In this document: positions 24,429-32,162 of the stretch, one piece after another
How positions within the stretch are numbered: the stretch's first letter is position 1
How the letters are laid out: each line of letters opens with the position of its first letter
Source of the DNA: Minisyncoccota bacterium
Lineage (GTDB): Bacteria > Patescibacteriota > Minisyncoccia > Minisyncoccales > CG1-02-41-26
Assembly: GCA_028718965.1 (NCBI GenBank)
Contig: JAQUKS010000004.1
Span: 1-44,106 of the forward strand
Length of the DNA: 44,106 bases
Reading direction: 5' to 3'
Made by a program: the position numbers and the translations under genes
The notes under the pieces: generated by a model
Databases searched by the model: none
The model's input: only the letters and a program-made list of their open reading frames with translations
Told to the model about the DNA's origin: nothing

Positions 24429-24992
24429 ATGATCGTCAACGTAATCACAAAAAATCCGGGAAAGCTGGCCTCGATAAAGGCAGCTTTTTCTAAGTTCGGT
24501 ATCAAGGTGAATCAGATAGAAAAAGGCTTTTTCGAAATCCAGGCCGATTCGAGTCTGGAAATAGCGGAGAATGTCGCTCTGCAAGCTCTTAGAGAATTGA
24601 ACGCGCCGGTGATCAGGGAGGATCACAGCCTTTTTATAAACTCCCTGGGCATACCCGGGCCTTATACGAGCTTTATGGAGAAAAAGATGCCGGTGGAGAA
24701 GCTGCTGGAGATACTCGAAACGCAGGAAGACAGAAGCGGTTATTTCGAGATAGCGACCGTCTACCTTGAACCGTCCGGCTTGGCAAAAAGATACGTTTGT
24801 AAGATTCCTGTTTTTTTCGAAAAAGAAGTAAAGGTGTCCGATCCGAGGGGCGGATGGAACGGGATAATAAGACTGGCTGACGAAAAAAGAACTTTCACCG
24901 AATATCCCGAGGAAGAAAGATTGCATATTTGGGGCAAAAACTGTCTTGCTTTGGCGGAATTTTTGGCGAATCGCGAAAAGAAGGAGGTCTGA
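24429..24992 (+). CDS. Non-canonical purine NTP pyrophosphatase (RdgB/HAM1-like)
   Basis: TKNPGKLASIKAAF, REDHSLFINSLGIPGPYTSF. Confidence 0.82.
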   Translation: MIVNVITKNPGKLASIKAAFSKFGIKVNQIEKGFFEIQADSSLEIAENVALQALRELNAPVIREDHSLFINSLGIPGPYTSFMEKKMPVEKLLEILETQEDRSGYFEIATVYLEPSGLAKRYVCKIPVFFEKEVKVSDPRGGWNGIIRLADEKRTFTEYPEEERLHIWGKNCLALAEFLANREKKEV

Positions 24993-25000
24993 AGCGCGAA

Positions 25001-25029
25001 TTGACTTTTTCTCGATCATCGCGTAAAAT
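25001..25029 (+). promoter_or_regulatory. Promoter of the T-box/proBCA transcript (TTGACT-N17-TAAAAT)
   Basis: TTGACT 25001-25006, TAAAAT 25024-25029. Confidence 0.72.
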
Positions 25030-25035
25030 ATGAAT

Positions 25036-25295
25036 ATCAATGCGAAGGGAAGAATAGTATCCCCAAAGGGAGAACCCGCTTCCCACCCTTTTAGGGGCAT
25101 TGCCCTGGAAAATCCGGCCAGGCCGGGATTAACAGGGGCGGTCACCCGGCCGTATCAGAAAGTGGGTAACCATTGATAAAAAGATGGTGAGGCCCTGATT
25201 TTATTCAGGGCAAAGATGGGTGGTACCACGAGAACCCTCGTCCCATTACAATAACTTTCGTTTCAACGCGGTTATTGTGGCAGGACGAGGGTTTT
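25036..25295 (+). promoter_or_regulatory. T-box leader riboswitch upstream of proBCA
   Basis: AGTA near start of Stem I-like region, GCCCTGA/TCAGGGC hairpin (Stem III-like), T-box GGGTGGTACCACG at 25218-25230, terminator stem ACCCTCGTCC...GGACGAGGGTTTTT. Confidence 0.92.
25234..25295 (+). terminator. T-box-controlled intrinsic terminator
   Basis: CCCTCGTCC (25235-25243) pairs GGACGAGGG (25283-25291) plus inner ACAATAAC/GTTATTGT, then TTTTT. Confidence 0.88.
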
Positions 25296-25301
25296 TGTTT
25301 T

Positions 25302-26375
25302 ATGAAAATAGTCATAAAAGTCGGATCAAACGTGTTGTGCGCCGAATCAAAAAGTTTGGACCTGGGTTTGATTGAACGACTGATCGAGCAGATAGCCGCG
25401 CTTTATGAGAAAGGCCATGAGATTATTTTGATCACATCCGGGGCGGTAGCCGGCGGCCGCGGTATTTTGAAAAATCCCGAGGCTGTTTCAAAAGCGGCTT
25501 TGGCGGCCGCGGGCCAGGTTGAGATAATGAATCATTATCACGACTTTTTCGGTAAACATAAAATAAAGACGGCCCAGCTGCTGCTCTCGCCTAATTGCTT
25601 CAAAAACAGGGCCAGATACGATGCTTTGAAGAATACCATCATTGAACTTGTCGAGAGCCGTATCATTCCCATTATCAACGAAAACGACGCCACGACCGTC
25701 AATGATTCTTTCCGCGACAACGATTCTTTGGCCAGCATGATAGCGGTTCTTTTTAATGCTGAAAGATTGATATTTCTGACCAATTTGGACGGCCTTTATT
25801 CGGCCGATCCCAATATCAATAAGGACGCGCGGATGATCAAGGAGGTAAAAAACGTTGATCTTGCGATACAGAAGATGTGTTCAAAGGGTAAATCCAGTTT
25901 GGGCAGCGGCGGCATGCTTTCAAAATTAAAGGGGGCCAAGCTGGCGGCCACCTGCGGGGTGGAGGTCAATATCATAAACGGTTTGGAGCCCGAGAACATC
26001 GGACGTTTATTATCGGAGAATAAGCCGTTGGGAACAAGATTTTTGGCGCAAAAAAGCGGATTATCACACAGGAAGAAATGGCTGCTTATAGGCGCGGCTT
26101 CCCAAGGCAAGATTATCGTCGATCAGGGAGCGAGGAAGGCTTTGCAAGGCAAGAACAGCCTTTTGGCTGTCGGGGTAAAGGACGTCAAAGGCAATTTTAT
26201 TCAAAGGGATTTCGTCAATATCGCTGACCAAAAAGGCGAGATATTCGCTTTGGGCATTGTCAATTATGGCTCTTGCGATCTGTCAAAGATCAAAGGTTTG
26301 AAAGATAAAGATAGTATCAAAAAAATATGTCCGCGCGAGGTCGTGCACATGGACAATCTAACTTTGCTTAAATGA
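25302..26375 (+). CDS. proB: Glutamate 5-kinase
   Basis: MKIVIKVGSNVLC, NENDATTVNDSFRDNDSLAS, C-terminal PUA; ATG at 25302 because the longer ORF starts inside the terminator. Confidence 0.95.
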   Translation: MKIVIKVGSNVLCAESKSLDLGLIERLIEQIAALYEKGHEIILITSGAVAGGRGILKNPEAVSKAALAAAGQVEIMNHYHDFFGKHKIKTAQLLLSPNCFKNRARYDALKNTIIELVESRIIPIINENDATTVNDSFRDNDSLASMIAVLFNAERLIFLTNLDGLYSADPNINKDARMIKEVKNVDLAIQKMCSKGKSSLGSGGMLSKLKGAKLAATCGVEVNIINGLEPENIGRLLSENKPLGTRFLAQKSGLSHRKKWLLIGAASQGKIIVDQGARKALQGKNSLLAVGVKDVKGNFIQRDFVNIADQKGEIFALGIVNYGSCDLSKIKGLKDKDSIKKICPREVVHMDNLTLLK

Positions 26376-27205
26376 TCATGAAGTTGAAAAATATCAAAAT
26401 CGGTCTGATCGGATGCGGCACGATGGGCGGCATCATCGTTCAAAAGTTGTTGAGCGAGGGCGTTGTCAGTAAAAGCCAAATCGTTGTCAACGATAAAGTT
26501 TTCGAAAAAGCCCGGGCCATGGCCTCTTTGCGAAAAGTCGGGATGTCAAAAGACGCGAAAGCCCTTGTTGAAAAAAGCGACATTTTGGTTTTGGCGGTGA
26601 AGCCCCAGGATTTCAAAGATCTGGCCAAGGAGATAGCGCCTTATACCGGAAAGAAAAGAATACCGGTGATTTCGATCATGGCGGGAGTCGAAATCAAGAC
26701 CATCAGAAAGTTTTTGCTGTGCGAGGCCGTAGCAAGGGTCATGCCCAACATGGCTTCGCGTATCGGCAAAGGGGTGAGCGTTTGGCTGTCTTCACCAGCC
26801 TTTACTCAAAGCGGAAAAAGGCAAGTCGAGATCATTTTGCGGTCTCTGGGCGTGGCGATAGAAGCGCGAAAGGAAAAATACATCGATATGGCCACGGCGG
26901 TTTCCGGATCAGGTCCGGCTTATGTTTTTCTTTTTCAGGAATTGTTTTTGAAAGCAGCCAAGTCTTTGGGCATGCCCAAAGACTTGGCTGAAAAATTGTC
27001 TTTGGAAACGATTCGCGGGGCGGTGAGCCTGCAGGAGGAAACAAAAGAAAGCCCCGACGTTTTAAGGAAAAAGGTAACTTCCAAAGGCGGGACCACCGAA
27101 AGGGCGATTAAAGTTTTCCAAGCCAGGCGATCGGCGGAAACGTTTTGTTCGGCCGTTGAGGAGGCTTTCAAAAGAAGCCAGCAATTAAAGAAAACGATAA
27201 AATGA
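26372..27205 (+). CDS. proC: Pyrroline-5-carboxylate reductase
   Basis: IGLIGCGTMGGIIVQKL, GSGPAYVFLFQEL, KKVTSKGGTTERAI; ATGA overlap with proB. Confidence 0.95.
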   Translation: MIMKLKNIKIGLIGCGTMGGIIVQKLLSEGVVSKSQIVVNDKVFEKARAMASLRKVGMSKDAKALVEKSDILVLAVKPQDFKDLAKEIAPYTGKKRIPVISIMAGVEIKTIRKFLLCEAVARVMPNMASRIGKGVSVWLSSPAFTQSGKRQVEIILRSLGVAIEARKEKYIDMATAVSGSGPAYVFLFQELFLKAAKSLGMPKDLAEKLSLETIRGAVSLQEETKESPDVLRKKVTSKGGTTERAIKVFQARRSAETFCSAVEEAFKRSQQLKKTIK

Positions 27206-28458
27206 CCAAGCAAAATTTTTTAAAACAACTTATCAAAACGAAAAAAGCCGGCGTTGAGCTGGCCGCCTCTTCCCTGAAGACAAGGAACGCCGCTTTGCGG
27301 GAGATCGCCGGGCAATTAAGGCAGGCCAAAGGCCTGATCCTGAAAGAAAACCGGAAAGATGTCCGGAAGTTCAAGACAGAAGACCCGTTGCGCGATCGTC
27401 TTCTGCTTACCGAAGAACGCATTGCGGCAATGATCAATGACATTCAAACGGTTATTAAGCTGCCGGATCATTTGAACGTGATTCTCGAAGAGAAGACGAT
27501 CGAAAACGGCCTGTCCGTCAGAAAGGTCTCATCGGCTTTCGGAGTGGTTGGGGTCATTTACGAATCCAGGCCGAACGTGACCGTTGATGTGGCTGTTTTG
27601 AATTTAAAAGTCGGCAACGCGGTGGTTCTGAAGGGCGGGGATGACGCTTGTTTCAGCAACAGGATTTTGGTTGAGCTGATGCGCGAAGCGCTTAGGAAAG
27701 CCGGGCTTGCTCAAGAAACCATCTTGCATATTGATCCCAGAGACAAGGACTTGATTGGTTTCATGTTGAAGAGACGGGACTTGATCGATTTGATCATTCC
27801 AAGGGGCGGGCACGGGCTTATCAAGTTTGTCCGGGAAAATTCCGAAATACCGGTCATAGAAACCGGCGCGGGCGTTTGCCACACTTTTGTTGATGATTCG
27901 GCTGATATGGAAATGGCCGGCAATATCGTTTACAACGCCAAAGTGTCGCGGCCTTCGGTCTGTAATTCTCTGGATACCCTGTTGGTTCACAAGAAAGCGG
28001 CTTTGAGTTTGCTAAAGAATCTTGACGCCAGACTGCGGGAAAAAGGCGTGGAGATTTACGCTGACGAAAAAAGTTTTGCCATATTGAAGGCGCGAGCTTA
28101 TCCTTATCTGAAAAGAGCCAAGAAACATGATTACGGCAGGGAGTTTTTATCTTTGAAAATGGCGATCAGGGTTGTTGAGGGCATTGATGAAGCGATCAGA
28201 CATATCGGGACATACTCGACCAAACATTCGGAAGCCATAGTCACCGGAAACAACAGAAATGCCGACAAATTTTTGAATTCGGTGGATGCCGCTTGCGTTT
28301 ATCACAATGCCTCCACCCGCTTCACCGACGGTTCGCAATTCGGCTTGGGCGGGGAGATAGGCATATCCACCCAAAAGCTCCACGCCAGGGGTCCCATGAG
28401 CGTAAAAGAGCTTACAACCTATAAGTGGATCATCAAGGGGCGAGGGCAAACAAGATAA
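27202..28458 (+). CDS. proA: Gamma-glutamyl phosphate reductase
   Basis: GVVGVIYESRPNVTVDVAVLNLKVGNAVVLKGG, VSRPSVCNSLDTLLVH, FGLGGEIGISTQKLHARGPM. Confidence 0.96.
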   Translation: MTKQNFLKQLIKTKKAGVELAASSLKTRNAALREIAGQLRQAKGLILKENRKDVRKFKTEDPLRDRLLLTEERIAAMINDIQTVIKLPDHLNVILEEKTIENGLSVRKVSSAFGVVGVIYESRPNVTVDVAVLNLKVGNAVVLKGGDDACFSNRILVELMREALRKAGLAQETILHIDPRDKDLIGFMLKRRDLIDLIIPRGGHGLIKFVRENSEIPVIETGAGVCHTFVDDSADMEMAGNIVYNAKVSRPSVCNSLDTLLVHKKAALSLLKNLDARLREKGVEIYADEKSFAILKARAYPYLKRAKKHDYGREFLSLKMAIRVVEGIDEAIRHIGTYSTKHSEAIVTGNNRNADKFLNSVDAACVYHNASTRFTDGSQFGLGGEIGISTQKLHARGPMSVKELTTYKWIIKGRGQTR

Positions 28459-29591: not shown

Positions 29592-32162
29592 ATGCCCAAG
29601 AAAACAACAGTTCTAACCGGAATCATAGTAATGACAATTTTCATTACTGTTTTTTTTGTTTTCATCTGGCAAACAAAAGGTAGCTTAAAGACCGAACTGG
29701 TTCAGGCTCAAATATCCTATCCCCAAGACGACTCAATCACCTGGCAATCCATCGGCCCTGGCGGCGGCGGCGGTTTTACGGCCCTTGCCATTGACCCCAT
29801 TGATGAAAATATTGTTTATACGGGAGGAGATTTGTCAGGAGCATTCAAATCAACTGACGGAGGAGCAAGCTGGAAGTTTATTAATAATGGTTTGGAGGAA
29901 TTTGTCATTCAGGAAATAGCCGTTGATCAAACCGACCCAAACACTCTTTATTTAGGGACTACGGGAGGTGTTTATAAAAGCACTAATAAAGGAGAAACCT
30001 GGCAGAGGAAAAGAAGCGGTTTCCCCGCGATTAGCAGTTCCACTTATTCAGCTCCGGCCAAAGCCATTGCCATTGACCCCAACAATCATAATGTCGTTTA
30101 CGTTTCCATAGCCGAGACCCATGGCAACAACTACTATTATGAAGATCGGGCTCAAAGATATAACAAGGGTCAAATTTACAAAACCACCAGCGGAGGAGAT
30201 TATTGGCAGGCCATTAACACTCCGGGGGCTAATGGTATTCCATCGGATGCCACAATTTTCGAATTGGCTGTTCGGCCAGGGGATTCCAATACTGTTTTGG
30301 CTTCAACTAACCGGGGTTTTTTCAAATCAACAGACGGGGGAGTAAATTGGACCAAGAAGTCTTTCGGGCTTCCTTATGATGATATCAGAGGCCTGGCCGT
30401 TCACCCTGCTAATCCGGATATTATTTATGTTACTGTTTGGACCCCGCAGGAACCATGGAACGGAGGAGTATTCAAATCAACTGACAATGGCGAAACTTGG
30501 GTGGCCAAGAATACGGGGTTGAAGCACAGGAATGACGGAGCGGGTAGTTTGACATCAAATTATCCCGAGGTAATTATTGACAAGAACAATCCAGAAACAA
30601 TTTTTACTGGCGATCGAAGCTGGGGCACGTATGGCGTTCAAAAAAGCACTGATGGCGGCGACACTTGGACAGGACTTATTTCTTATGATTACAGCGCTAA
30701 GAAATGGACCAATGTTGACACATTACCTTATGGAGGGGTGAATGTTTCCACAATGGCTATATCCCCAACGAACGGAAATAAATTATTTTTTGGCACTTCA
30801 ATGACGCTTTATAAAACCGAAAATCAGGGGTTAAGCTGGATGGCTAGCCATATTCAGGAGTTCGGCTCTGACACATGGAAGGGCCGCGGAGTTGAAAACA
30901 CTTGTGTCCAGAGTCTGGCGGTTAACCCAGACGACTCTAACTTGCTTTATCTTGGCTATGCGGACATATCTTTAGTGAGAAGCAAAGATGGCGGAGCGAC
31001 TTTTCATAGATCAAAGCCCGGGTTCAAAAACTGGGATGATGTTGACGCGATAGCCTTTGACCCTGATAATTCCGCTATTGTTTATGTGGGAGATAATATT
31101 TCCAGCGGCTCGGGAACGTTGCTCAAAAGCACTAATTCTGGCAATACTTGGACGATTATAGGCTCGGACAGTAATGGGCTTGCCAATGGTCAGGTTTTTG
31201 GCATAGCCATAGATCCAAAAAGCCCCCAGGCCTCAAGAATTATTTATGCCGCTGTTGTTGGCAAGGGAGTATACAAAAGCGTAAACGGAGGAACAAGCTG
31301 GTCAGTTTTTAACAGCGGGCTTAACAATGATTTTGTTGTTCGTAGTTTGGCCATTGACCCTATCAATCCCGCCACGCTTTATTTGGGCACCTGGGATAAT
31401 ATGTACAAGACCATAGACGGAGGAACAAACTGGACAATGATTGCGGGCAAGGATAAAAGAAATTTTTCGGCTGTTTACAGTATTGCCGTTGATTATAATA
31501 ATCCGAACATCGTTTACGCTACCGCCAGGCAAAGATATTTTTCGGGCGTGGGGACATTGCAAGGAGGCGTTTATAAAAGCCTTGATTCTGGGGAAACCTG
31601 GACAAAGATTTTGAGCGAGTTTTGGATTGAAGACATAGCAATGAATCCTTATGATCCGAGCATTCTTTATGCTGGCGCGCAAGCTTATAATTATTTTGAC
31701 GCTTATCGACAAAAAGGGCTTTATCGCACTAAAGATGGCGGGCAAACTTGGACTTTGATAAGCAACAATTTGCCCCACACTAATATTTCCGCCTTAGCCA
31801 TTGATAAACAGGACCCAAGAGTTATTTACATCGGCACGGGTGGGGGCGGCGTATTCAAAGGTATCGATTATTCAATTCCTCTTCCGGTTCAAAAAGCTCC
31901 GAATATTGCCATTACCATGACCGCTGACAAAACCCAGGCTTATGCCAATGAAGAAGTTGCTTATACTATAAGTTTTCAGAACATCGGAGACGGCCCGGCC
32001 CGAAACATAATCATTACTGATACGATTCCCAACGGTATGATCTATATAGCGGGTTCGGCCACTGGCGGCGGAACGCTGTCGAGTAGTACTCTTACATGGA
32101 ATGTCGTCGCTCTGGATGCGGGCGAAAGCGGTTCGGTAAGTTTTCGGGTGAGAGTGGAATAA
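29592..32162 (+). CDS. Secreted/surface BNR-repeat beta-propeller (sortilin/xyloglucanase-like) with C-terminal DUF11 domain
   Basis: N-terminal TM, many (V/F)(Y/F)KSTDGGxTW repeats, C-terminal DUF11-like ITDTIPNGMIYIAGSATGGGTLSSSTLTWNV. Confidence 0.85.
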   Translation: MPKKTTVLTGIIVMTIFITVFFVFIWQTKGSLKTELVQAQISYPQDDSITWQSIGPGGGGGFTALAIDPIDENIVYTGGDLSGAFKSTDGGASWKFINNGLEEFVIQEIAVDQTDPNTLYLGTTGGVYKSTNKGETWQRKRSGFPAISSSTYSAPAKAIAIDPNNHNVVYVSIAETHGNNYYYEDRAQRYNKGQIYKTTSGGDYWQAINTPGANGIPSDATIFELAVRPGDSNTVLASTNRGFFKSTDGGVNWTKKSFGLPYDDIRGLAVHPANPDIIYVTVWTPQEPWNGGVFKSTDNGETWVAKNTGLKHRNDGAGSLTSNYPEVIIDKNNPETIFTGDRSWGTYGVQKSTDGGDTWTGLISYDYSAKKWTNVDTLPYGGVNVSTMAISPTNGNKLFFGTSMTLYKTENQGLSWMASHIQEFGSDTWKGRGVENTCVQSLAVNPDDSNLLYLGYADISLVRSKDGGATFHRSKPGFKNWDDVDAIAFDPDNSAIVYVGDNISSGSGTLLKSTNSGNTWTIIGSDSNGLANGQVFGIAIDPKSPQASRIIYAAVVGKGVYKSVNGGTSWSVFNSGLNNDFVVRSLAIDPINPATLYLGTWDNMYKTIDGGTNWTMIAGKDKRNFSAVYSIAVDYNNPNIVYATARQRYFSGVGTLQGGVYKSLDSGETWTKILSEFWIEDIAMNPYDPSILYAGAQAYNYFDAYRQKGLYRTKDGGQTWTLISNNLPHTNISALAIDKQDPRVIYIGTGGGGVFKGIDYSIPLPVQKAPNIAITMTADKTQAYANEEVAYTISFQNIGDGPARNIIITDTIPNGMIYIAGSATGGGTLSSSTLTWNVVALDAGESGSVSFRVRVE

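Follow-up and report, generated by a model that had tools for sequence, protein, structure and literature searches.

T-box riboswitches are currently divided into four classes. Classes I and II combine a long Stem I with an elbow module and generally act on transcription; in classes III and IV Stem I is short or intermediate and lacks that module, and control is mostly translational (PMC10482949). According to a review, transcriptional T-boxes as a rule need the long Stem I, whose elbow-binding module allows fast capture of the tRNA, and those with Stem II are likely to need a K-turn as well; it raises the question of whether a T-box, particularly one having Stem II, can ever function without a K-turn (PMC7583486). 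Among the closest described systems are the proBA and proI T-boxes of Bacillus subtilis, which share ligand class and genes with the locus studied here and in which tRNA-Pro controls full-length transcription (PMC9245794). Compared with these leaders, by general features and not base by base, the leader described here precedes proB, proC and proA joined in one operon, has a short Stem I and belongs to a patescibacterial host.

In the window (the whole 44,106-nucleotide stretch analysed), a T-box leader occupies 25036-25301, ahead of proB-proC-proA (Table 1). The RF00230 search bore out the T-box identity proposed in the original prediction: the match covers 25041-25248 over the full length of the model (positions 1-219) at 53.9 bits, with E 3.2e-11 in a relaxed scan and E 1.7e-11 against the whole genome. 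The default Rfam scan of the window returned no T-box match because this score lies below the gathering score of 93 bits, a shortfall due to the short Stem I; matches above 93 bits occur in only 13 of the 389 sampled genomes of the phylum, most of whose T-boxes score lower. The MFE fold of the leader is far more stable than those of shuffled sequences (z = -6.9), and the pattern RGGTGGNACCRCG matches once in the window and in 0 of 100 shuffles. The T-box motif itself, GGGTGGTACCACG, was found where predicted, at 25218-25230, as were the GCCCTGA/TCAGGGC hairpin, the AGTA at the start of Stem I, which lies within AATAGTA, and the TTGACT-N17-TAAAAT promoter. This promoter-like match sets the predicted transcription start at about 25036 and directly follows the upstream neighbour, an RdgB/HAM1-like gene (under its family cut-offs) that ends at 24992. 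Matches of its kind are not rare by chance (0.7 expected per shuffle), and a sigma-70-like sequence alone is not evidence of function.

Table 1. Predicted features of the proB leader and the genes it precedes (positions in the window)
Feature	Position	Strand	Basis
Sigma-70-like promoter: TTGACT 25001-25006, 17 nt, TAAAAT 25024-25029	25001-25029	+	Direct reading and consensus scan
T-box leader RNA, predicted to extend to the proB start codon	25036-25301	+	RF00230 match and folding z
Stem I, short, without elbow-binding distal module	25038-25102	+	MFE fold; compensatory changes against L089 and L127
Stem I base helix CAAUGC/GCAUUG	25038-25043/25097-25102	+	MFE fold
Stem I lower helix GGGAAG/CUUCCC	25047-25052/25079-25084	+	MFE fold
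Specifier loop, 5' side, AAUAGUA, with AGUA of loop E / S-turn	25053-25059	+	Identical in L089 and L127
Stem I upper helix, about 4 pairs, closed by a tetraloop	about 25060-25063/25068-25071	+	MFE fold
Specifier loop, 3' side, GAACCCG	25072-25078	+	Identical in L089 and L127
Specifier CCC, followed by a purine	25075-25077	+	Frame from L005 (hisS) and L004 (proB)
Extra small hairpin CCCU-UUU-AGGG at the K-turn strand position	25086-25096	+	MFE fold
Stem II, purine-rich internal loop GAAAA/UUAA	25103-25137	+	MFE fold
Predicted Stem IIA/B pseudoknot region (GCGGUCACCCGGCCGUAUC), F-box-like CCGUA	25138-25156	+	RF00230 alignment
Stem III, GCCCUGA/UCAGGGC	25192-25211	+	Sequence and fold
Antiterminator AUGGG-UGGUACC-ACGAG/CUCGU-CCCAU	25216-25246	+	RF00230 alignment; MFE of transcript up to 25262
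T-box bulge UGGU, complementary to tRNA 3' ACCA	25221-25224	+	RF00230 alignment
Intrinsic terminator, core stem ACCCUCGUCC/GGACGAGGGU	25234-25301	+	Fold of -38 kcal/mol for 25229-25301
proB, glutamate 5-kinase	25302-26375	+	TIGR01027, 344 bits (cut-off 186)
proC, pyrroline-5-carboxylate reductase	26372-27205	+	TIGR00112, 234 bits (cut-off 197)
proA, glutamate-5-semialdehyde dehydrogenase	27202-28458	+	NF001221, 538 bits (cut-off 289)

The predicted proBCA operon is supported too, its three genes being tightly ordered and each exceeding its curated NCBIfam cut-off. The nearest named relative of proB, 57% identical, belongs to Candidatus Nealsonbacteria, in line with the Patescibacteria-like genome that had been proposed; the other named relative, from a Chloroflexi MAG, is 38% identical. 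A ProB at E 1e-30 or better was present in only 27 of the 389 sampled phylum genomes, and proline synthesis by this route is therefore exceptional in the phylum. With 48 contigs, the assembly is about 96% complete. Elsewhere in the window, the protein encoded by 29592-32162 is 856 aa long; its repeats match the F510_1955 glycosylhydrolase family, and it has a DUF11 repeat close to the C terminus.

Stem I had been called short and unusual. It is short, and the distal elbow-binding module (IDTM) was not found in its MFE fold, which makes it not unusual but a recognised elbow-module-free architecture, here combined with a terminator. The specifier loop folds as a 7x7 internal loop, AAUAGUA/GAACCCG, and is letter for letter common to two other leaders from this order (L127 and L089); in the helices that flank it three pairs have changed on both sides and all cells are paired, among only three sequences. 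The specifier had been left unassigned. We place it, from the GAA-CAC-A of a hisS leader (L005) and the GAA-CCU-A of a proB-like leader (L004) in the same order, at the triplet right after GAA, which here reads CCC, a proline codon in agreement with the amino acid of the downstream genes. Among proline specifiers held in TBDB 14% are CCC, and specifiers in general favour C as their third base (PMC7778990). At the base of Stem I a K-turn consensus was not found by eye, and the RF00230 alignment deletes that part; in the MFE fold the extra hairpin makes a predicted three-way junction there.

Downstream of Stem I, the internal loop of Stem II may form an S-turn, to judge from the predicted fold, and the GUGAG flanking Stem III on its 5' side fits the conserved RRRxG motif in part. 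The antiterminator appears in the fold of the transcript ending at 25262. The terminator core stem (25234-25292) is followed by GTTTTTGTTTT up to 25301, with a U tract at 25291-25301 and the proB ATG directly after, at 25302; the strong terminator that had been predicted is present, and whether it ends the stated 6 nt short of proB turns on how far pairing is taken to extend into the U tract. Since the terminator overlaps the 3' half of the antiterminator, the two structures are mutually exclusive, and in the full leader the terminator state is more stable by 15 kcal/mol than a forced antiterminator state.

The genome encodes the cognate tRNA. The gene for tRNA-Pro(GGG), with anticodon GGG and A73, lies at C25:2635-2705 (L230/L252) and was recovered through a homologue in the same genus (G002); RF00005 and ARAGORN detect tRNA-Pro(UGG) and miss tRNA-Pro(GGG), as does a T-loop pattern, and tRNA-Pro(CGG) was also found. 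A CCC specifier without a cognate tRNA was ruled out once this homologue had led to the gene. An alignment of 7 tRNA-Pro(GGG) genes shows pairing in 98.6% of cells, two-sided changes in 8 pairs and covariation at all five pairs of the anticodon stem, indicating that the gene is maintained. Since ARAGORN and RF00005 both missed it, tRNAs are probably undercounted in these genomes; tRNA-Asp was likewise not found in this genome. The codon-anticodon match CCC:GGG comprises three Watson-Crick pairs, UGGU pairs with ACCA, and all three tRNA-Pro species (GGG, UGG and CGG) carry the A73 complementary to UGGU. The tRNA-Pro specificity of the original prediction is thus supported by CCC, UGGU and a tRNA-Pro(GGG) with discriminator A.

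This tRNA also has an altered elbow. G18 and U55 are near-universal in tRNAs. Among the tRNA loci of the genome considered here (L021-L065, L252 and L265), A18/G55 occurs in nine: Cys, Gly-GCC, His, one Met, Phe, Pro-CGG, Pro-GGG, Thr-GGU and Thr-UGU. The T-loop of tRNA-Pro(GGG) reads CGCGCUA. In an alignment of about 70 tRNA-Pro genes from the order, neither A18 nor G55 is seen without the other (11 genes from several families have both), and G19-C56 is kept. A18/G55 has the look of a coupled elbow change. All three genomes having a short proline T-box have the A18/G55 tRNA-Pro(GGG). We considered a dedicated regulatory tRNA that had coevolved with the T-box and rejected it: 7 other genomes of the order carry A18/G55 tRNA-Pro(GGG) with no detected proline T-box, and the change is shared with the Cys, Gly(GCC), His, one Met, Phe, Pro(CGG) and two Thr tRNAs of the genome studied here.

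Taken together, we infer that a tRNA-Pro-sensing T-box very probably controls proB-proC-proA transcription by antitermination, as originally proposed and as the predicted mutually exclusive antiterminator and terminator support. In the cell, the Stem I specifier CCC would pair with the anticodon GGG of tRNA-Pro. When this tRNA is uncharged, its 3' A73-C-C-A would pair with the UGGU bulge and hold the antiterminator, and polymerase would enter proB; when it carries proline, its 3' end would be unable to pair, and the stronger terminator would form and stop transcription just before proB. The net effect of such tRNA binding and charging-dependent switching would be transcription of proBCA only when proline is short. 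Stem II may replace the missing elbow contact, by analogy with known short T-boxes. Against the antitermination reading stand the score below the gathering cut-off, the sporadic occurrence at proB, the absence of a recognisable K-turn and the partial RRRxG.

Because the terminator covers GAGGG (25287-25291, 10 nt before the ATG), a possible Shine-Dalgarno inside its 3' arm, an added translational effect is possible, and we found no other purine-rich or Shine-Dalgarno-like stretch ahead of the ATG. A T-box acting on translation, or on both levels, through a terminator hairpin that also hides this ribosome site would fit the mostly translational mode of T-boxes without the elbow module (PMC10482949, PMC7583486). 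We regard it as unlikely, since the hairpin is a textbook terminator with UUUUUGUUUU. By a simple heuristic, a terminator-like hairpin and T run also follow 68 of the 72 T-boxes of the order, with most start codons well beyond the hairpin, and in L004 and L176 the Shine-Dalgarno sequence lies past the terminator. A tRNA-unresponsive, decaying T-box left behind as a constitutive attenuator is considerably less likely. The replaced K-turn, the T-box-free orthologous proB genes and the low family score could be taken as signs of decay, but every working part, from the specifier loop and UGGU bulge through Stem II and Stem III to the antiterminator and terminator, is whole and compatible with the others, the genome has the cognate tRNA, and leaders in another family carry the very same loop.

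The specifier frame was assigned from loop position, and one-base shifts in either direction are known (PMC7778990), so that a -1 frame would give ACC and a T-box for tRNA-Thr. That the leader serves another tRNA is nevertheless highly improbable: the +0 and +1 frames, CCC and CCG, both specify proline, UGGU mismatches the discriminator U of the tRNA-Thr of this genome, and the downstream genes are proline genes. There is also hardly any likelihood that 25036-25301 holds a plain terminator of the upstream gene next to a chance T-box-like motif; the terminator is there, but so are a full-length family match, a motif found in 0 of 100 shuffles and a promoter between the upstream stop codon (24992) and the leader.

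The antiterminating proline T-box that we favour is a T-box by every feature testable here, and it resembles two classes at once. With class I (the B. subtilis tyrS type) it shares an internal-loop specifier of the AGUA/GAA kind, Stem II, Stem III, an antiterminator and a terminator, but it has neither the interdigitated double T-loop module which, at the end of the long class I Stem I, stacks on the tRNA elbow, nor a recognisable version of the class I K-turn (PMC10482949). With class IV, exemplified by Actinomyces odontolyticus ileS, it shares an intermediate Stem I without the elbow module, a side-loop specifier and Stem II (class definition, PMC10482949); it ends in a terminator, with the Shine-Dalgarno-like GAGGG inside it, where classes III and IV are described as mostly translational, and unlike ileS it specifies proline, not isoleucine. 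Set against the published class descriptions, a class IV-like Stem I joined to a terminator makes this a T-box that fits none of the four classes cleanly. The closest likenesses are L127 and L089, which have the identical specifier loop, UGGU and a terminator; both keep K-turn-like sequences at the base of Stem I, where the proB leader has the predicted three-way junction and extra hairpin. L127 precedes an ornithine aminotransferase gene (TIGR01885, 486 bits; cut-off 378), whose product feeds proline synthesis. L089 lies about 390 nt before proS (TIGR00409, 342; cut-off 307), with a short ORF between; this Cys/His-rich ORF, directly downstream of the T-box, starts MTATQNHVCQGVFHVCYYCGKQGCENC.

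T-box control of proB is sporadic. T-boxes precede a shorter proB-like gene in G018 (L004; product slightly under the proB cut-off) and, directly and with UGGU and a terminator, proB in G286, of a distant family (L176), but the orthologous proBCA loci of G173, G067 and G058 have none, nor have most other proB genes. General conservation upstream of proB was not found in relatives, and this check of the original prediction is borne out only in part; its other two checks, an RF00230 hit and a proline specifier, both came out clearly in its favour.

T-boxes as such are widespread in these bacteria. At E 0.001 or better, RF00230 has matches in 60 of the order's 247 genomes, and at E 0.0001 or better in 127 of the 389 sampled phylum genomes; in the control set, matches at the same thresholds came only from Bacillus, Lactococcus, Corynebacterium, Thermus and Deinobacterium. 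The original prediction, which placed T-boxes mainly in Firmicutes, with fewer cases in Actinobacteria and some other phyla, has to be amended: they are common in Patescibacteria, and the present case is not a one-genome oddity. The genes downstream, mostly named by reading the translation and in few cases by NCBIfam, include serS, serB-like phosphatases, thrS, glyS, hisS, tyrS, trpB-/trpE-like genes, argG-like genes, an aminotransferase and proB. In the leaders of the order, UGGN varies with the gene, mostly UGGC at serS/serB, UGGA at thrS/glyS, UGGG at hisS and UGGU at tyrS/proB, and the discriminators in this genome (Ser G, Thr U, Gly U, His C, Tyr A, Pro A) complement the N. By the same terminator heuristic, such a hairpin also follows 33 of the 34 leaders whose Stem I domain is predicted to be at most 60 nt long, the domain calls being rough.

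This genome has a second T-box (L001) at C1:36690-36877 on the minus strand; it precedes serS, its Stem I is ultrashort, and the apical loop apparently contains UCC. A third RF00230 match (C6, 13 bits, E 0.6), which overlaps coding sequence, was discarded. G173 carries two near-identical T-boxes (L098 and L103, on C7 and C56), one at a contig edge and neither with an assigned ORF, which resemble the T-box before an aminotransferase gene in G025 (L010).

In the searchable, non-subscription literature, no report links T-boxes with Patescibacteria, Parcubacteria or the Candidate Phyla Radiation; patescibacterial T-box sequences may already be present in RF00230 or TBDB. The switch is of a known type, and its compact, terminator-joined form in these bacteria has hardly been described before. 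A wider proposal, tentative and on balance doubtful, is that Patescibacteria hold a separate, widespread line of terminating T-boxes without the elbow module, whose proline member is also free of the K-turn and acts on an elbow-remodelled (A18/G55) tRNA-Pro(GGG). If so, fast tRNA capture ahead of a terminator would be possible without the elbow contact. The proB leader offers a natural test of the long-Stem-I and K-turn requirements, with its two K-turn-keeping relatives as controls. Little is known about regulation in ultrasmall bacteria (PMC11665869), and the leader suggests that those with few biosynthetic pathways still couple the remaining ones to tRNA charging.
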